Below, one piece after another: positions 42,755 to 59,357 of a DNA stretch of 64,000 bases. Source of the DNA: Acidaminococcus sp. (GTDB taxonomy: Bacteria; Bacillota; Negativicutes; Acidaminococcales; Acidaminococcaceae). Where the stretch lies: contig JAKVOM010000001.1 in the NCBI GenBank assembly GCA_022482815.1, positions 1,426,001 through 1,490,000 on the forward strand, written 5' to 3'. Both the position numbers and the translations under genes were made by a program. The notes under the pieces were generated by a model. That model had not been told where the DNA came from. It saw nothing but the letters and a program-made list of their open reading frames with translations, and did no database searches. How positions within the stretch are numbered: the first letter of the stretch is position 1; each line of letters begins with the position of its first letter.

Positions 42755-43796
42755 AAATATTCTGATTATCAAAATGAGCTCCCTGGGGGACGTCATTCAT
42801 GCCCTGCCGTTTGCGGGGGCGCTGCGGGAACGGTTTCCGCACAGCCGGATTACGTGGCTGGTGCATCCGCAGTTTGGTGCTTTTGTACCGGATCCGCCTG
42901 TCGTGGATGAAGTCTTGTATTTTGACAAGAAAGCTTATCTCAAGATGAACTGGAAGGATAAGCTGAGGAAACTTCGGGAAATGAAGCATCTGCTGCACTC
43001 CTGTCATTTTGATCTTGTCATTGATCTGCAGGGACTTTTTAAGAGTGCAGTCATGGCGTATCTGACGGGTTGCCCCAATCGCATCGGATACGGTGAAATG
43101 CGGGAAGGCAGCGGCCTGATTTCGAAGGCGATTGTCGGCCCTCATATTCATGACCATGTGATTGAGCGTTATCTGGATGTGGCACGCTATCTGGGAGCTA
43201 AGGTGGATAAAATCAGTTATCCTATGCCGGCTCTGAAGGAACAATGCGAATCCATCAAGCAGCGGTTAATCGAGGCCGGCATGCCGGACAAGAACCCGCT
43301 GCCATACGTTGTGATGGCGCCGGGAGCCCGCTGGGAGACAAAGCAGTGGCCGGTAGAGCACTATGCCGAACTGGCACTGAAATTTGCCAAAGATGACTGG
43401 TACGTCGTACTTGCCGGAGGACCGGACGACTGTAAAAAAGGTGAGCGTATCTGGGAACTGACCGGGTACAATCCTCACATCATTGATTTTATCGGTCACA
43501 CAAATCTCCGGGAACTCGGTGCACTCATTAAAATGTGCCGATTCTACGTGAGCGGCGATACAGGCCCGCTTCATATTGCGGCAGCCTACGGAAAGAACCT
43601 GATTGCGATTTACGGACCGACGAGGCCAGATCGTACCGGTCCTTACGGAGATCTGGGTGCTGTGATTCTGACGAGTCCCGAGTCGTGTGCCGGCTGTCTT
43701 AAAAAACATTGTGATCACTGGACGTGTATGGGGCATGTAACCCCCGACGACGTTTACCGAATCTTTCAGGAAAAGGAGGCCGAATCGCATGATTGA
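42744..43796 (+). CDS. LPS core heptosyltransferase (GT9, WaaC/WaaF type), first of two
   Basis: A 350-residue GT9 glycosyltransferase: ILIIKMSSLGDVIHALPFAGALR at the N-terminus, DLQGLFKSAVMAYLTG, the donor-site MAPGARWETKQWPVEHYAEL and SGDTGPLHIAAAYGKNLIAIYGPT. The MSSLGD motif and the substrate logic of the operon suggest heptosyltransferase I (WaaC), but WaaC versus WaaF cannot be settled by eye. It starts with GTG at 42744. Confidence 0.88.
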   Translation: MEYKNILIIKMSSLGDVIHALPFAGALRERFPHSRITWLVHPQFGAFVPDPPVVDEVLYFDKKAYLKMNWKDKLRKLREMKHLLHSCHFDLVIDLQGLFKSAVMAYLTGCPNRIGYGEMREGSGLISKAIVGPHIHDHVIERYLDVARYLGAKVDKISYPMPALKEQCESIKQRLIEAGMPDKNPLPYVVMAPGARWETKQWPVEHYAELALKFAKDDWYVVLAGGPDDCKKGERIWELTGYNPHIIDFIGHTNLRELGALIKMCRFYVSGDTGPLHIAAAYGKNLIAIYGPTRPDRTGPYGDLGAVILTSPESCAGCLKKHCDHWTCMGHVTPDDVYRIFQEKEAESHD

Positions 43797-44817
43797 ACTT
43801 GCACATAAGAAAATCATCGTGACTTTTTTGATGCACCTGGGCGATTTGGTGCTCACGACGCCTTTTTTGCATGCGCTCCGCAGCGCAGCACCGGGGGCAG
43901 AGATTACATACCTCGTCGATGAAAAACTGCGGGATATCGTAGATTACAACCCTAATATCGACCACGTATGGACGATTGATAAAAAGGGAAAGGACGATAA
44001 TCTGAAATCACTTCTCGCCATGAGCCGCCGCATTTCGGAAGCTCATTTCGATGTGCTGATCAACCTGCACCCGAATGAACGCTGTTCCTTTATCGACGCC
44101 ATGGCTTCTGTGCCCGTGAAGGTGGGGGCAAGTCACTTCATTTTCCGTCCTTTCTTCCATCCGTTTATCAAACTCAATCGGACCATTCACGCGGCTGATA
44201 TGTACCTGGATGTGCTGACGCGGCTGGGCGTAAAAAATCTTGTCCATAATGGTCTGGAAGTCTTTCCCGGACCGGAGCATCAGGAAAAAGCCCGCCTTTT
44301 CTGGGAAGATCAGGGACTCATGCCGGGGCAGCTGCTTGTCGGTTTTAATATCGGAAGTGCTGTCGTGACAAAGCGCTGGGCACCGCAGCGCTTTGCCCAG
44401 GTCGCTGATACACTGGCGTCGGAAGGGTACCGTACCGTCTTTTTCGGCGGGACTATGGATGAAGCAATGGTCAAAGAGGCTGTGAGCTACATGAAAACGC
44501 AGCCGATTATTGCGACCGGAAAATTCCGTTTGGGAGAACTGGCTGCTGCCATGGGCCGCTGCAAACTTATCATTACTAATGACAGCGGACCTATGCACGT
44601 AGCCATCAGTCAGAAAGTACCGATTGTGGCGATGTACGGCCCGAGTCATCCGGATTTGTACGGACCTTATACCAAGGATGCTATTATCGTACGGGCTATT
44701 CCGCCTTGTGACGGCTGCCACAAACGCATGCGCCATCAGTGCGATGATATGCGGTGCATGAAGAATTTGACGGTAGAGCAGGTGCTGGAAGCGGCGCACA
44801 AGTTTTTGAGGGTTTAA
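43789..44817 (+). CDS. LPS core heptosyltransferase (GT9), second of two
   Basis: A 342-residue GT9 protein: IIVTFLMHLGDLVLTTPFLHALR, VLINLHPNERCSFIDA, GFNIGSAVVTKRWAPQRFAQV and TNDSGPMHVAISQKVPIVAMYGPS. It has a Cys cluster near the C-terminus (IPPCDGCHKRMRHQCDDMRCM) that the first paralog shares in part (CAGCLKKHCDHWTC), as in WaaF/WaaQ-type enzymes. It probably adds the next core heptose. Last gene of the operon; its stop touches the minus-strand RNA-like element. Confidence 0.87.
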   Translation: MIELAHKKIIVTFLMHLGDLVLTTPFLHALRSAAPGAEITYLVDEKLRDIVDYNPNIDHVWTIDKKGKDDNLKSLLAMSRRISEAHFDVLINLHPNERCSFIDAMASVPVKVGASHFIFRPFFHPFIKLNRTIHAADMYLDVLTRLGVKNLVHNGLEVFPGPEHQEKARLFWEDQGLMPGQLLVGFNIGSAVVTKRWAPQRFAQVADTLASEGYRTVFFGGTMDEAMVKEAVSYMKTQPIIATGKFRLGELAAAMGRCKLIITNDSGPMHVAISQKVPIVAMYGPSHPDLYGPYTKDAIIVRAIPPCDGCHKRMRHQCDDMRCMKNLTVEQVLEAAHKFLRV

Positions 44818-45258
44818 AGGCACCTCTGCTCATCTGGTACTCGGCAAGCCTCGCACGCAGCTGAGCAGAGAGTTCTTTCCAAGGAAACTTTTTAAGTCCG
44901 ACGCCGAATATGGGCGCATCTGCTTTGTCAGACCGGGCTGTGACCACTCGTGCGGCCTTCGGCCGAAAAGGAAACTCACGCAGCTCCTTCTCGTCGCTGC
45001 TTCTGAGAAACTTCGCGTCAACAACTCCCACGGCGCTTCGCTTGTGTATCGTTGGCGCTCAGTTCCGACTTCGTGGCCCCAACCCGGTCTTTTGGGGAAC
45101 CGATGACTAAATGAGATGTGTCAGATTCATGTAGATACGCTGCATCTCTCTAGGAGACAAAGCGATGATTTACCGGGTGTAAGTCGAGCTTTTGTCGACA
45201 ACGGGAGAACAGCGTAGATGCATGAAGATGGCGCGTTGAATTAGTCATCGGTTCCCTG
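44818..45258 (-). ncRNA. Structured RNA-like element, copy C (minus strand)
   Basis: Read on the minus strand, this stretch shares a core with the elements at 55294-55536 and 56835-57076: a stem 45080-45089/44931-44940 (GACCGGGTTG with CAGCCCGGTC), the linker TGACAAAGCAGATGC, and a 3'-terminal hairpin (44824-44832/44862-44870) whose inner helix is flanked by paired GA steps. Unlike the others it has a 127-nt insertion at the apex of the first stem and a 15-bp inverted repeat (45096-45110/45241-45255) at its 5' side. A 111-codon minus-strand frame here runs on into the heptosyltransferase and is not taken as a gene. Confidence 0.6.
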
Positions 45259-45450
45259 ACATCTGCACCCATCTTCGGTATCGTCCATAAAAAGAAAAAC
45301 AAAATAAAAAACACTGCTTAAACGTTAAGAAGGAAAAGACATGCCTGAAATTCAGCAAAGGTAATACTATTTCTTTTAGCAGTGGTTTTGCGGCTATACG
45401 AGTTTTGTAAAAATCTGTTAAAAATTTTTCAACTTTTTTCAAAAAAACAC

Positions 45451-52510: not shown

Positions 52511-52978
52511 ATGGATCTTTTTACTTTCCTTTTCATTGCAGTTATCCTCATGATGATACAAAGCAGCACTCAGAAAAAGAAGAAACGGGTGCCGCCGAAA
52601 CCGCAGCAGCCGATTCCGCAAAAAACAGCAAAAAAACAGCCGCTCAATCCTCATATCAGAGAGGCGCTGGAGCGATTCGAAAACCGGATGAAGTCTCAGT
52701 CCCAGCCTCAATCTCAGTCGGAACCTTCCTGCGCCGGACCGACGATTTCCGATGAGCCGCTGCATACAACGGAAAAGGATGAAATTCATCCTATCAATCC
52801 GACTGTAAAAGAAGATCTGACAACGCTCAGCACTTCCGTAAAGGAAGATTTGAAACCGCAGGTGGCGGAAGCTCCGGAACCGGGTGAAAGTTCCGAAACT
52901 AAGCCTCGGACGCGCAGCAGACGAAGCAAAGTTCGTGAAGGTATTATTTGGAGTGTTATCCTGGAGCGCAAATATTAA
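52511..52978 (+). CDS. Small membrane-anchored protein of unknown function, floA operon
   Basis: A 155-residue protein with a single N-terminal helix (FTFLFIAVILMMIQSS), then a Lys/Pro/Gln-rich, probably disordered region and a short conserved-looking C-terminus (KVREGIIWSVILERKY). It lies 11 nt after floA with an AAGGAG site, so it is the third gene of the nfeD-floA operon. I do not recognise a family; a role in the flotillin complex is suggested only by position. Confidence 0.75.
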   Translation: MDLFTFLFIAVILMMIQSSTQKKKKRVPPKPQQPIPQKTAKKQPLNPHIREALERFENRMKSQSQPQSQSEPSCAGPTISDEPLHTTEKDEIHPINPTVKEDLTTLSTSVKEDLKPQVAEAPEPGESSETKPRTRSRRSKVREGIIWSVILERKY

Positions 52979-52986
52979 AGGCATTT

Positions 52987-53042
52987 GGCCACATAGAGTC
53001 CTCAATTTGTCTTGGGCGTCTATGTGGCCTGAGTTTTTTTTA
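52987..53042 (+). terminator. Terminator of the nfeD-floA operon
   Basis: GGCCACATAGA pairs with TCTATGTGGCC around a 21-nt loop; T8 follows after 5 nt. Confidence 0.8.
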
Positions 53043-53188
53043 GAAAAGCGGCTGGTTCATATTAGGCTTTGATTCCTTGCGGCTCCTTTGCAGCAAATTT
53101 TCTGTGAAAAATGAAAATAGTGACGGAGCGAAAAAGGTATACTGCTGAATGCTTAGTTTATCATCTTTGGAATGCAGTAGGCGAGGCT

Positions 53189-55250: not shown

Positions 55251-55293
55251 GTTTTTTACTTTAGCTTTTCAACTACAGCCAGAGGCGATTTTG

Positions 55294-55536
55294 GCCGCCA
55301 GAGGCGGCTCTATTTGTTTCTGGTGGACTCTGCTGCAAGACAGCTGCAGATGCGCGAAAGACCGGATTGGGGCCATGAAGTCGTACAAAAGACGTACGTC
55401 GAATGGTCACAATCCGGTCTGACAAAGCAGATGCAGTTGGATTCTGCAGAGGACAACTGAAACGTCTCTAGAAAAGCTCTGCGCCAATAGGCGTCCGAGA
55501 CATGTCGAGGACTCTATTGGCGCAGGTGCCTTTTTA
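55294..55536 (+). ncRNA. Structured RNA-like element, copy A
   Basis: About 240 nt, strongly similar to 56835-57076. Order: 5' hairpin GCCGCC/GGCGGC (55294-55308); CAGCTGCA/TGCAGTTG (55341-55348/55432-55439); inside it GACCGGATTG/CAATCCGGTC (55360-55369/55410-55419) capped by GGCCA/TGGTC and a CGTAC/GTACG loop; then TGACAAAG; then the 3'-terminal hairpin CTGCGCCAATAG/CTATTGGCGCAG (55479-55490/55514-55525) with inner GTCC-GA-GAC-AT-GTC-GA-GGAC. The 3' hairpin followed by GGTGCC and T5 could terminate transcription. No ORF is conserved between the copies. Confidence 0.7.
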
Positions 55537-55824
55537 TCAGGATTCGCTGCAGTATTGCTCTTTAAGTGCCTCAAGGACCGGCAGTAAACGTCGATCCTTA
55601 ATTTGGTAAAATACATTAAGCCCTCGTTTTTCTGCCTCCAGAATTCCTGCCATGCGAAGCTGGGCGAGGTGCTGGGACAGAGCAGAAAGCGAAATGTTGG
55701 GAACCTTACTGTGAATTTCTCCTACGGTCAGGCTTCCATCCATGAGGGCACAAATAATCAAAAGGCGGTACTGATTGGCCAGTAATTTTAAGAGTTCAGC
55801 GATTTCCTTTGCTTGTTCTTCCAT
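55537..55824 (-). CDS. ArsR-family transcriptional regulator
   Basis: A 95-residue winged-helix repressor: IAELLKLLANQYRLLIICAL, VGEIHSKVPNISLSALSQHLAQLR (recognition helix) and the wing AGILEAEKRGLNVFYQI. No clear pair of metal-binding cysteines is seen in the recognition helix (only one Cys in helix 2 and one near the C-terminus), so a redox or sulfur signal is as likely as a metal. It overlaps the end of the Fe-S membrane gene by 29 nt and has a GGAGG site; it probably controls the palindrome at 56611-56651. Confidence 0.88.
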   Translation of the reverse strand: MEEQAKEIAELLKLLANQYRLLIICALMDGSLTVGEIHSKVPNISLSALSQHLAQLRMAGILEAEKRGLNVFYQIKDRRLLPVLEALKEQYCSES

Positions 55825-56398
55825 GAGAGGATCCTCCTTTCAGTACGCAAATAGCCTGGGTCATGGTTCCCATGGGGCAGTAGACACACCAGGAACGAGG
55901 ACGGAACAGGACCATCGTGATGAAACCAAGCGTGCTTGAAGTCAGCATGACACTGAAAAATCCGTATGCGAACTGGGCCATCCAGGGAGAGACCCAGCTG
56001 ACGTCAGCCCACTGCCAGGGCAGACGGAAGGTCCAGAGCAGGGTGACTGTCTGACTGAGAGGAGCACCCATAAAAACCTGATAGGTAGCGTAAAGCATGC
56101 GCAGAAACATCACCATAAAAAATGCAAGAAATGCCAGACGGAACCAGCGGCGGTGCAGAAAAGCAGGCGGCGCTGTGTTGCGGGAAAGAGAGAACTTTTT
56201 GCCCAGAAGGCGGAGCAGCTGGCTGCGGCCGCAATAGCGGTTGCAGTAAGCTTTCCCATAGCCCAGTATGGAAAGAAGGAGGGGCAGGGTAAAGAAAATC
56301 AGTCCGAACCAGGCAAAAAGGATATTACAGACACCTAAAAAATCGTAAAGCAGTTCAACAACCCAGAGGTAGTCGTACCAATGCTTTTGTTTAGTCAT
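55796..56398 (-). CDS. 4Fe-4S-binding integral membrane protein (NapH/YccM-like)
   Basis: A protein of about 200 residues with four to five membrane helices and two Cys clusters: YCNRYCGRS after the second helix and CVYCPMGTMTQ near the C-terminus, as in NapH/NosR/YccM-type electron-transfer proteins. The start at 56398 (MTKQKHWYDYLW) is preferred over an upstream frame start at 56452 that would overlap the ferredoxin gene heavily. It probably passes electrons between the membrane and the co-encoded ferredoxin; the final acceptor is unknown. Confidence 0.8.
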   Translation of the reverse strand: MTKQKHWYDYLWVVELLYDFLGVCNILFAWFGLIFFTLPLLLSILGYGKAYCNRYCGRSQLLRLLGKKFSLSRNTAPPAFLHRRWFRLAFLAFFMVMFLRMLYATYQVFMGAPLSQTVTLLWTFRLPWQWADVSWVSPWMAQFAYGFFSVMLTSSTLGFITMVLFRPRSWCVYCPMGTMTQAICVLKGGSSHGRTSKGNR

Positions 56399-56597
56399 GG
56401 CAGGCCTCCCTTGGAACAATGGTAATGATGGCGGCCGGACATTCACGGGCACAGGTACCGCAGCCGACGCAGAGCGCAGCGTCTACGACAGCTTTGATCC
56501 CGGAGGGAACCGTAATGGCACCGCGTGGACAAACAGCGGCACAGGAGCCGCAGGCTACACAGTCGGCACCGACAGAAGCAATATTTTTGGATGCCAT
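56391..56597 (-). CDS. 2[4Fe-4S] ferredoxin
   Basis: A 68-residue bacterial-type ferredoxin with two CxxCxxCxxxCP cluster motifs: CVACGSCAAVCP and CVGCGTCARECP. It is the first gene of a minus-strand operon with the Fe-S membrane protein (8-nt overlap) and the ArsR regulator. GGAGG lies upstream of the ATG. Confidence 0.93.
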   Translation of the reverse strand: MASKNIASVGADCVACGSCAAVCPRGAITVPSGIKAVVDAALCVGCGTCARECPAAIITIVPREACHD

Positions 56598-56610
56598 AGA
56601 GAGGACCTCC

Positions 56611-56651
56611 TTTAATTTAATAATTTAGATATTTCTAAAATACTAAATTAA
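56611..56651 (-). promoter_or_regulatory. Palindromic operator of the ferredoxin operon
   Basis: TTTAATTTA (56611-56619) and TAAATTAAA (56643-56651) form a dyad around TTTAGATATTTCTAAA. Such AT-rich 12-2-12-like palindromes upstream of ArsR-controlled operons are typical operators. Confidence 0.65.
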
Positions 56652-56676
56652 AGGACATCTGTCAAGAGGGAAATAA

Positions 56677-56723
56677 AAAAGGCCTGTGAAAAAAATGAAA
56701 TTTCATTTTTCACAGGTCTTTTT
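56677..56723 (+). terminator. GTGAAA-type terminator hairpin
   Basis: GGCCTGTGAAAAAAATGAAA pairs with its complement ending in CACAGGTC, with A-rich and T-rich flanks, so it can act in both directions. Confidence 0.75.
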
Positions 56724-56768
56724 CGCCTTCCGCCCATGGAAGCAAAATTGTTGAGACAATTTTGCTCT
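56724..56768 (+). repeat. Mosaic repeat hairpin module
   Basis: CGCCCATGGAAGCAAAATTG with CAATTTTGC (hairpin 56751-56766), one of the dispersed GTGGAAGCAAAATTG modules; the GGTCGC block is nearly absent here. Confidence 0.7.
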
Positions 56769-56834
56769 GATCTTGTAAAAAGCAGCGCTCGAATTAGTAT
56801 CTAAAAACAATGTTTGTATTCTCTTTTTATATTT

Positions 56835-57076
56835 GCCGCCAAGGGCGGCTTTATCTGTTTCTGATGGACTCTGATGCAAGACAACCGCAGGGACGCGAAG
56901 AACCGGGCTGAGGCCAGGAAGTCGTACAAAAAACGTACGTCGAGTGGTCGCAGACCGGTTCGACAAAGTCCATGCGGTTGGATTCTTCAGAGGACAGCGG
57001 AAACTTCACTGAAGAGAGCTCTGCCTCGAAATGCGTGCGAGGCCAGCCGAGCACCAGAGAGAGGCAGGTGCTTTTC
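56835..57076 (+). ncRNA. Structured RNA-like element, copy B
   Basis: Homologous to 55294-55536 throughout. 5' hairpin GCCGCC/GGCGGC; CAACCGCA/TGCGGTTG (56882-56889/56973-56980); AACCGGGCTG/CAGACCGGTT (56901-56910/56951-56960, one G-A mismatch); GTCGTAC apical loop; CGACAAAG linker; 3' hairpin CTGCCTC/GAGGCAG (57021-57027/57061-57067) with inner GTGC-GA-GGC-CA-GCC-GA-GCAC. Relative to copy A several pairs change on both sides (G-U to A-U, U-A to C-G, GAC/GTC to GGC/GCC), as expected for a selected RNA structure. Confidence 0.7.
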
Positions 57077-57083
57077 CTTTAGA

Positions 57084-59357
57084 TTACACGTGAAATACAG
57101 TAGTACTCCCATGGTCGGATCCAATTACTTCTAACTGCGCAGGAATTCGTTCTTTCAGATCGGCCACGTGGGAGATGATACCAACGAGACGGCCGCCCTT
57201 TTGCAGGTCAATTAACGTATCCATGGCATTGTCGAGGGTCTCCGGATCGAGGGAACCGAAACCTTCGTCGACAAGGATGGTATCAAGGTGCAGTCCGCCG
57301 GCATAAGATTCGAGCACATCGGAAAGTCCCAGTGCCAGTGAAAGGGACGTAAAGAAACTTTCGCCGCCGGAAAGTGTGGTCACGGAACGGGCCTGTCCTG
57401 TGTAAGCATCAAGGATTTCCAGGTCGAGTCCCTGTTCCTTACGGGCATCGTGGATGCCCTGACGGCGGTACAGGGTATAGCGGCCCTGACTGATCTTGGA
57501 AAGTCTCAGGTTGGCAGTTTGCAGGACATCATCAAGAACGGCCTGCAGGACATATGTGGAAAATGACAGATTCTGGCTGTTGTCCCCGCGGGCGGTGGAG
57601 GCAAGGAGTCCGATAGGACCGTAAGCGTCCTGAAGGGATGTAAGTTGATTTTCCAAAGCTTCCAATTGACCGAGCTGCTTTTTCTGAAGTTCGATTCTTT
57701 CCTTGAGACCGCCGACTTCACGGGCCAGTTCCTGATAGGCTGCTCTTGCTTCGGCGTCGGCTTTTTCCAGGGGCTGCGTATCCGGTTTACTGCGGTCCTT
57801 GATTTCATTGGCAAGGACTTTCAGCTCTCCTGCCGTACTTGCCTTCCGGGTTTCAAAATCTTTCAATTCTTTTTCCCACGCACTCTTTTGTCCTAATTGT
57901 CCGTGAATCGTAAGGAATGCTTTTTGGTCGGGGAACGGAGAGGCTTCGAGCGCCGTTTTAAAGTCGGCCGCATCAGTTTTTTGCTGTGCGGAGGCCTTGT
58001 TGGCATTGGCCTTGGCAGTAGCCAGACTGCCTTCCAGTTGTTTCAGTTTGTTTTGCGCCTGTTCCAGTTCGCGCTGTTTTTTCTGCAGTTCCTGAATCTG
58101 TTTTTCTAATTTCTTCTGCTGCGCCAGCAGTCTTTCTTTCTCCTGTTTTGTCTGGGTAGCCGGATGCGGATGTTCCGTTGCGCCGCAGACAGGGCAGGGC
58201 TCCCCGGGCTTCAGGCTTCCGGCAAGCCGTACGGTTTCCGTCGAGACGGCGGTCATGCGGGCCAGTTCCTCCCGGGCTTTGGCAGCAGCCTCCTGCAGCA
58301 CCTGCGTATTGGCGTCTGTCGCATTCTTTGTCTTAGCCGCAATATCCTTGAGAGCTGCGTCGTATTGCTTTGTCGTTGTCTCCACGGTATTTTCCGCTTG
58401 TTTCCACTGCATTGTGGAACGGCGGGCACGGTCATAGACGGGGTGGAGCTTCAGTGCTTCCTCAAGGTGCCCGATGGCGGCAGCCAGTTTATCCATAGCA
58501 GGCTGCTGCGCCGTGAGTGCTTCCTGCCGTTTTGTAACATTGTCGAAAGATGTGAAAAGACTGAGCAGTTTTTTTGCTTCCTGCAGGGCTGCAGCCGTTT
58601 CTCGTGCCGTTTTATCGGCAGCGGCCAGTGCTTTTTCCTTGGCTGCAAGAAGCAGCTGATTTTGCTCTCTGGATTTTTTCAGCGCCTCTGCAGAGTCGGT
58701 ACCGGCCTGTCCGAGGAGCAGTGTCTTTTTGGCTTTGACATCTTCGTATTGCTGCTTCAGGGATTTAGCGCGTTCTGTCAGGGCTTCTTCCAGTTCCCGG
58801 TATTGGCTGGTACGGAAAAGGGTTTCCAGGATTTGCCGGCGATTTTTGGAGTCAGCCATGAGGAAGCGGCGGAACTCGCCCTGCGGCAGCACCATGAGCT
58901 GACGGAACTGGATTGCCTTGAAACCGATGATAGATTCGATTTCTTTTGTGACGGAACCATAGGCAGATGCCTTGATAGTGCGGCTGCCGTCCGGTTCAAT
59001 TTCGACAAGGGATGCACCGGCAGGCACAGATCTTGTTCCTTCACCGCGCTGTTTTTGCAGGATCTGTTCCGGCGTGCGCGTTACTTCATAGGTATGACCA
59101 TGATTGGTAAAAGTGAGTGTGACTTCGGTTTTGAGGGTAGGAGGGGCATAGTCACTTCGAAGCGAACGGTTTTCACGCAGGTCACCGCTTGCCGTTCCGT
59201 AGAGTGCGAATGTGATAGCATCCAGAATGGTGGTCTTGCCGCTGCCTGTCGGGCCGGTAATCAAAAAGAGACGCTGCTCTCCCAGACGGGTAAAATCGAT
59301 TTCTTCTCGCTGCGCGTATGGACCGAAAGCCTGCATTGTCAGTGTAAGCGGTTTCAT
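57084..59357 (-). CDS. sbcC: SbcC, SMC-like exonuclease subunit (short coiled coil)
   Basis: The Rad50-type ATPase of the SbcCD nuclease, which opens DNA hairpins and trims double-strand ends. N-terminal MQAFGPYAQREEIDF and Walker A TGPTGSGKTTILDA; a zinc hook CPVCGATEHP near residue 387; C-terminal signature VTTLSGGESFFTSLSLALGL and Walker B DTILVDEGFGSLDP. At 757 residues it is shorter than E. coli SbcC (about 1050), so the coiled-coil arms are short. It overlaps sbcD by one base. Confidence 0.95.
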   Translation of the reverse strand: MKPLTLTMQAFGPYAQREEIDFTRLGEQRLFLITGPTGSGKTTILDAITFALYGTASGDLRENRSLRSDYAPPTLKTEVTLTFTNHGHTYEVTRTPEQILQKQRGEGTRSVPAGASLVEIEPDGSRTIKASAYGSVTKEIESIIGFKAIQFRQLMVLPQGEFRRFLMADSKNRRQILETLFRTSQYRELEEALTERAKSLKQQYEDVKAKKTLLLGQAGTDSAEALKKSREQNQLLLAAKEKALAAADKTARETAAALQEAKKLLSLFTSFDNVTKRQEALTAQQPAMDKLAAAIGHLEEALKLHPVYDRARRSTMQWKQAENTVETTTKQYDAALKDIAAKTKNATDANTQVLQEAAAKAREELARMTAVSTETVRLAGSLKPGEPCPVCGATEHPHPATQTKQEKERLLAQQKKLEKQIQELQKKQRELEQAQNKLKQLEGSLATAKANANKASAQQKTDAADFKTALEASPFPDQKAFLTIHGQLGQKSAWEKELKDFETRKASTAGELKVLANEIKDRSKPDTQPLEKADAEARAAYQELAREVGGLKERIELQKKQLGQLEALENQLTSLQDAYGPIGLLASTARGDNSQNLSFSTYVLQAVLDDVLQTANLRLSKISQGRYTLYRRQGIHDARKEQGLDLEILDAYTGQARSVTTLSGGESFFTSLSLALGLSDVLESYAGGLHLDTILVDEGFGSLDPETLDNAMDTLIDLQKGGRLVGIISHVADLKERIPAQLEVIGSDHGSTTVFHV

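Follow-up and report, generated by a model that had tools for sequence, protein, structure and literature searches.

The question raised by this locus is what kind of element stands, in several folded copies, between the genes of a 64,000-nt stretch of Acidaminococcus sp. DNA (contig JAKVOM010000001.1, positions 1,426,001 to 1,490,000, hereafter the window). The original prediction, made from the letters of the window, hesitated between a family of non-coding RNA genes and a small mobile element moved in trans, the latter being either PATE-like or an orphan TnpB/IscB-type guide RNA. Here we conclude, with a probability of roughly two in three, that the copies are non-autonomous mobile elements similar to miniature inverted-repeat transposable elements (MITEs), at the center of which lies a hairpin maintained in its single-stranded, folded state.

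Along the unit the stems P1, P2 and P3/P4 are followed by an A-tract linker and then by P5, a 3' hairpin in which a tandem G-A step is retained. The paired changes that had been noticed among the window copies recur in a far larger set, since in an alignment of 26 Acidaminococcus copies RNAalifold yielded 59 pairs, 40 of which have changed on both sides at least once without loss of pairing. Paired cells amounted to 97.5% (79.3% when shuffled and at most 39% after sliding by 1-3 columns) and the covariation score to 0.537 (0.196 shuffled, at most 0.088 slid), the structure having been derived from the very alignment on which it was scored. Covariation in the copies of this genome is overwhelming. 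R1, a covariance model for this unit of 218 nt (26 rows, both complete window copies among them), gave at least 80 matches at E<=0.01 on the 3.06-Mb chromosome (150 of 755 candidates scored), some of these being the two halves of one insert-bearing copy, and at least 36 exceeded 190 bits, so that the whole-genome scan which the original prediction had proposed does reveal many genomic copies; blastn found 51 matches on the same chromosome. Among 39 core positions in the fetched stretches, 33 copies could be delimited and six were skipped (window copy 1 among them), and the delimited copies measured 216-225 nt (25 copies), 379 nt (five), 478 nt (two) and an odd 412 nt (one). P1, P3 and P5 each occur as several sequence types in differing combinations, with extra modules at hairpin tips and junctions, and the Acidaminococcus unit appears to have become modular, with exchangeable P1, P3 and P5 types and inserted domains. 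In one stretch (L031:900-2400; G000:C1:74500-76000) complete and cut copies with differing P3 types form a tandem array, as if units had recombined in place.

The copies contain a core hairpin, AGAUN...GACAAAGN'AGAUG, set between freely varying stems, and this core is multicopy also in Desulfobacterota, Gammaproteobacteria and Oscillospiraceae. With the P2 internal loop recast as a search pattern of 23 fixed bases (AGATNCGCGAA-N36..66-TGACAAAGNAGATG), exact matches were found in at least 120 stretches of named genomes, the number estimated by chance being 0.2 in the 257-Gb collection. The matches listed belong mostly to Desulfobulbaceae and other Deltaproteobacteria, and Amphritea, Neptuniibacter, Marinobacterium, Endozoicomonas, Acidaminococcus, Phascolarctobacterium and Oscillospiraceae are also among them. 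A second covariance model, R2, was built from 22 aligned representatives (alignment A3), all outside Acidaminococcus, and it matches window copy 1 at 55327-55453 with 55.7 bits. The 23 invariant columns of A3 are the bases fixed in the search pattern, and their invariance comes from that selection and is no evidence. The stems of A3 are informative: 27 of the 32 pairs show double changes, 88.5% of cells are paired (57.3% shuffled), the covariation is 0.815 against 0.208 after shuffling, and N and N' are complementary in 22/22 sequences. To view the core free of the pattern, we aligned 88 matches of R2, taken from two genomes and from 15 divergent loci (85 distinct rows). In each column of AGAU and N'AGAUG the most frequent base accounts for 92-100% of these rows, in GAC for 85-100% and in most stem columns for 40-60%. 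The conservation of this core in jumping elements of distant bacteria hints at a shared job for the hairpin. Further loci (L280-L288, L087 and L088) hold divergent relatives with CAACAAAG or CGACAACG where the others have CUGACAAAG, several of them bearing an apical GUAC..GUAC..CGAG hairpin, and this suggests a wider superfamily.

Which of the two strands folds can be read from the wobble pairs, as a G-U pair on one strand is an A-C mismatch on the opposite one. The GU:AC ratio was 37:10 in Acidaminococcus without two majority-G-U pairs (73:10 with them) and 60:19 in A3. For P1 alone it was 95:7 in UBA2273, 23:1 in Oscillospiraceae (13 hairpins), 47:5 in the S144/M17 family and 14:4 in A. fermentans, and without the pattern filter it was 128:8 in UBA2273, 95:10 in Oscillospiraceae and 33:10 in the divergent loci. 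Because GU outnumbers AC in most families, selection acts in these on one folded strand, and the folding of five strand pairs favored the same strand in 5/5. Wobble bias alone does not separate RNA from single-stranded DNA (ssDNA); we lean toward RNA as the folded form because wobble pairs are so well tolerated.

The evidence for mobility comes chiefly from the relatives. The elements are short (216-478 nt in Acidaminococcus, about 150 bp in Desulfobulbaceae and about 208 bp in S144/M17) and have no transposase gene. The Desulfobulbaceae copy has an GTAACTATCCAGC-like left end, a leader of some 45 nt and then the hairpin, and an exact 8-bp direct repeat was found in 23 of 75 copies (mean of 0.18 and maximum of 2 with permuted flanks), its left member lying 42-49 nt before P1 in 22 of the 23. 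Members of the S144/M17 family end in CCTAGATTGAGCG, and of their 25 full copies 23 have identical repeats of 5 bp (1.17 under the null). The ends of the Gamma copies are IS5-like, and among eight whose ends were read by eye a 4-bp repeat is present in four (CTAA in L311 and L317, CTAG in L155, CTTG in L316). Inverted ends in the relatives are GTAACTATCCAGC, CCTAGATTGAGCG and GGRA..CTCTG, and those of Acidaminococcus show just a short AAGGCA/TGCCTT similarity. Duplications of 8, 5 and 4 bp therefore point to at least three kinds of transposase, and we take the element to be mobile and non-autonomous, with a core common to families that must owe their movement to different transposases. An insertion of retro type, which would leave the 3' end precise and the 5' end ragged, was considered and dropped once the left end and the 8-bp repeats were found.

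The distribution is patchy. R2 gave from four to at least 150 matches per genome in 26 genomes, mostly picked as carriers; in broader samples with stricter filters it was present in 12 of 118 Desulfobacterota and 5 of 185 Gammaproteobacteria (the query genome counted in each). Within the phylum of the window the exact pattern, which detects only 13 copies of the source genome itself, occurred in 2 of 398 genomes including that one, and R1 was present in 14 of 61 relatives (own genome counted) and in 7 of 9 within the genus. Viral contigs contained no exact match to the pattern, and blastn was likewise negative, both for a window copy queried against phages and plasmids and for a divergent relative queried against plasmids and E. 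coli. A deltaproteobacterial contig (L289:4973-11690) holds five nearly identical copies inside 7 kb, pointing to recent spread. In a genus relative (L079:1501-1883) the P1-P4 hairpin is present as two to three neighboring units, the second and third being weak (20 and 10 bits).

The copies are also placed in a peculiar manner with regard to genes. Once seven unusable copies and five without a convergent neighbor had been set aside from the 33, there remained 21 Acidaminococcus copies, and the distance from the 3' end to the stop of the convergent gene was at most 10 nt in 15 of them (0.9 expected) and at most 25 nt in 20; this expectation assumes even placement in the gap and, left edges being uncertain, is a low guess, though the excess is large. 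Several element ends supply the TAA that the neighboring gene uses as its stop, and the T tract of P5 averages 5.7 of 8 on the gene strand compared with 4.4 on the sense strand. Among 35 Oscillospiraceae matches a stop abuts the 3' side in 10/20 (4.6 expected) and the 5' side in 0/15 (1.8 expected). The element lies behind the same two genes in two genus relatives (G004 and G007), and such flanking genes as were identified, in two genus relatives, have housekeeping roles.

Placing these results into one model, the core would be a cis-acting RNA module (less likely ssDNA) that binds a partner shared by many bacteria. Binding of this partner would keep the core conserved while the surrounding transposon ends change, and transposases would act in trans on those ends. 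By comparison with the relatives, the Acidaminococcus copies were probably moved by a DDE-type transposase. Their P5, which on the strand of the convergent gene resembles an intrinsic terminator, may terminate that gene, and such a terminator would render the insertion harmless and keep transcription from entering the element. Taken further, the core could be a new class of selfish nucleic-acid module that uses unrelated DNA transposons as vehicles and binds its common partner through the GCGAA/GACAAA-type internal loop and the tandem G-A AGAU/AGAU step, this partner then being shared by Firmicutes, Desulfobacterota and Gammaproteobacteria; we offer this as a tentative idea, possible and yet not one we would favor.

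Several observations weigh against a mobile element with a conserved core, and most of them concern its movement. Only one of 33 Acidaminococcus copies has a fitting direct repeat (L024, 7 bp), the left edge being uncertain, none of 20 Oscillospiraceae copies has a repeat of 5 bp or more, and the other four Gamma copies (L200, L216, L312 and L313) lack the 4-bp repeat. The scarcity in Acidaminococcus fits old copies, yet leaves room for another mechanism. The covariation, the patchiness and the duplications of the related families speak in favor of a small element moved in trans; the Acidaminococcus copies themselves show just this single repeat. A mobilizing transposase was not found; among the proteins beside 120 loci the largest cluster was an ABC transporter (10 loci) and the second consisted of response-regulator/HD proteins (nine loci), both being taken as background. 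The DDE domain of IS66 was absent from 9 of 10 genomes in a search that covered this DDE family only, and IS66 as the mobilizer is unsupported. The Gamma family lacks the strand asymmetry (P1 GU 6 : AC 12). The one-sided abutment to stops in Desulfobulbaceae shrank after the true left end was used (3' side 24/39 against 12.6 expected; 5' side 12/28 against 8.1), P5 on the gene strand was not among the results of a simple terminator scan restricted to loops of 3-8 nt, and promoters are not in excess in front of the window copies. As to the core, the exact pattern fits just 31 of the 85 R2 rows and the 13 copies of the own genome already mentioned, and its CGCGAA strand is often swapped for an AGG-type sequence; because of this the conservation of the core is strong, not absolute.

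Among the other explanations, the folded strand could act as ssDNA, with a core that is recognized, as a hairpin, by a recombinase or transposase working in trans on one particular strand (attC-like or HUH/Y1-like), the ends being secondary. That a single strand folds, and that in Acidaminococcus this strand is antisense to the abutted gene as attC bottom strands are, agrees with such a view, but target duplications of 4, 5 and 8 bp mark DDE transposases, 3 of 14 hairpin genomes (among them one with at least 150 R2 matches) yielded no Y1 transposase, and the ends, where GTAAG and GTAAA occur, do not preserve the AAC/GTT triplets of attC; we consider it unlikely. Somewhat less likely again is a 3'-end element useful to the host, for example a bidirectional terminator, an mRNA stabilizer or a gyrase site of the REP/BIME kind (REP, repetitive extragenic palindrome), kept for that role. 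The stop abutment in Acidaminococcus and Oscillospiraceae, the terminator-like P5 on the gene strand and the recurrence behind the same two genes in two relatives would all be expected of it; such roles do not need the conserved internal loop, though, and S144-type copies show no stop bias (2/7, 1.4 expected), nor is there any R1 match in the surroundings of the sbcC orthologue in 8/8 genus relatives.

A stand-alone family of structured non-coding RNA genes, multicopy by chance, would account for the deep structural conservation and the GU-rich folded strand, and reading frames are indeed not kept, no open reading frame (ORF) of 100 or more amino acids lying inside the complete window copies. 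We regard it as improbable in view of the duplications and inverted ends of the relatives, the patchy distribution, the missing promoter excess and the fact that no position upstream of 33 UBA2273 copies rises above 0.5 bit. The orphan TnpB or IscB guide RNA (PATE-like), to which the original prediction had also pointed, we come close to discarding. The structured RNA does end at the 3' edge of the element and the own genome has five TnpB genes, but in a protein search aimed at TnpB alone 20 of the 24 genomes with the hairpin yielded no TnpB domain (three Acidaminococcus among the 20; several of the 24 are incomplete metagenome-assembled genomes), the R2 hairpin is absent from L309 and L310, the two examined of the six Y1 loci of the own genome, the HEARO model and the remaining Rfam models gave no match to it in the scanned loci, and Y1 elements make no duplications. 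The R2 hairpin occurred in only 2 of 20 sources of Y1 transposases (some overlapping). The five TnpB genes (G000:C1:731467, 1228481, 1390900, 240586 and 2721484) each lie about 1 kb from a Y1 transposase, so the genome has IS200/IS605-type elements of its own. Our preferred reading remains that of MITE-like elements around a folded core.

Within the window the R1 model recovered both co-oriented copies and the rearranged minus-strand copy of the original prediction, whose three copies are all real; the count rises to four with a degenerate copy on the minus strand. The borders had to be changed, the 218-nt unit beginning near 55316 and 56857 and copy 3 near 45293 (Table 1). The R2 scan of the window did not list copy 2, the core of which reads AGGGACGCGAAG/CGACAAAGTCCATG. 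In copy 3 a first module (GGGAACC...GGTTCCCC) splits the 5' loop strand of the core and a second (GGAACTGAGCGCC...) lengthens the apical hairpin, and modules akin to these inserts are present at other sites of the own genome. Upstream of many copies there are other families of short repeats and hairpins of the intergenic regions of this genome, and directly upstream of one copy (L003:115-1411) stand two tandem group II introns 666 bp apart (Rfam D1D4-6 and D5).

Table 1. Copies of the element, their parts and the adjoining genes, in window positions
Feature	Positions	Strand	Remarks
Copy 1, complete 218-nt unit (P1, P2, P3/P4, linker, 3' hairpin P5)	55316..55533	+	R1 match 55317-55533, 237.2 bits
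Copy 1 core, AGATGCGCGAAAG ... CTGACAAAGCAGATG	55348..55433	+	Part common to several phyla; read from sequence
Copy 1 P5 hairpin	55476..55529	+	T tract after stem on minus (neighbor-gene) strand
Copy 2, complete 218-nt unit	56857..57075	+	R1 match 56858-57075, 230.8 bits
Copy 2 P5 hairpin	57018..57071	+	
Copy 3, 478-nt form	44816..45293	-	R1 matches 3' part, 44816-45031, 91.3 bits
Copy 4, degenerate, P2-P4 deleted	52977..53110	-	R1 match 52977-53109, 39.9 bits, E 7e-8
GC-rich hairpin directly 5' of copy 1	55293..55309	+	Variable 5' piece found with some copies
GC hairpin before copy 2	56835-56849		Separate variable piece, outside 218-nt unit
Convergent gene, presumably ArsR-like regulator	55537..55824	-	Stop 3 nt from copy 1
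Convergent gene, presumably SbcC-like	57084..59357	-	Stop 8 nt from copy 2
Convergent gene, presumably heptosyltransferase-like	43789..44817	+	Stop meets copy 3
Convergent ORF	52511..52978	+	Stop meets copy 4

That the element belongs to no known Rfam family, as had been supposed, is supported by Rfam 15, which gave no match on it either across the whole window at gathering thresholds or in 28 loci at permissive thresholds; the matches in the scanned loci were tRNAs, the group II introns flanking the L003 copy, sub-threshold PyrR and YrlA, and chance. A description of it was not found, by sequence strings or words, in the open-licence texts of PubMed Central (PMC), a scope that leaves out subscription papers and preprints.

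Comparison with known systems places the element near several of them. REPs are extragenic palindromes, 20-40 bp in length and tagged by GTAG or CGTC, that are present in many copies in several phyla (PMC3733652). Unlike REPs, the hairpin measures about 105 nt or more, shows no GTAG/CGTC tag by eye and is not at Y1 loci beyond chance (the 2 of 20 sources given above); a REP moved by RAYT is not supported. The attC sites of integrons fold on the strand antisense to the gene, directly behind its stop, with stems free to vary, AAC/GTT boxes and extrahelical bases. The Acidaminococcus folded strand is likewise antisense to the gene and directly behind its stop, and its stems vary; unlike in attC, the ends are GTAAG and GTAAA besides GTAAC, so that AAC/GTT boxes are not kept, a conserved internal loop stands where attC has extrahelical bases, and the identified flanking genes are housekeeping genes. 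TnpB/IscB guide RNAs and PATEs are structured RNAs over the right end of a transposon and are often orphaned, whereas most carriers of the present hairpin have no detected TnpB and its relatives have target duplications.

The pneumococcal repeats BOX, RUP and SPRITE are multicopy, folded and enriched between convergent genes, BOX being modular and RUP thought to be mobilized in trans by an insertion sequence (IS), and such repeats are described there in streptococci (PMC3049150). As far as this description goes, the element is like them in being multicopy, folded, modular and beside convergent genes; the Rfam scans gave no link between them and the core, and otherwise the comparison is one of descriptions.

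The closest likeness is with bacterial MITEs, which a review presents as short and non-coding, with inverted ends, direct repeats, a folded transcript and many intergenic copies (PMC10969869). Measured against that portrait, the element is short and non-coding, its relatives have inverted ends and direct repeats, and it has many intergenic copies. A MITE family is normally tied by its ends to one IS family. Here, unlike in MITEs, related core hairpins are found in families with 4-, 5- and 8-bp duplications and in different bacterial groups. Miniature transposons are classed by their ends, whereas in this case the middle is conserved and the ends vary across distant bacteria with at least three duplication lengths. 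This suggests that non-autonomous elements have a partner or a function in common. The core offers a short and precise motif with which to fish out such a partner, the covariance models find tens of copies per carrier genome, and Acidaminococcus offers an experimental system.

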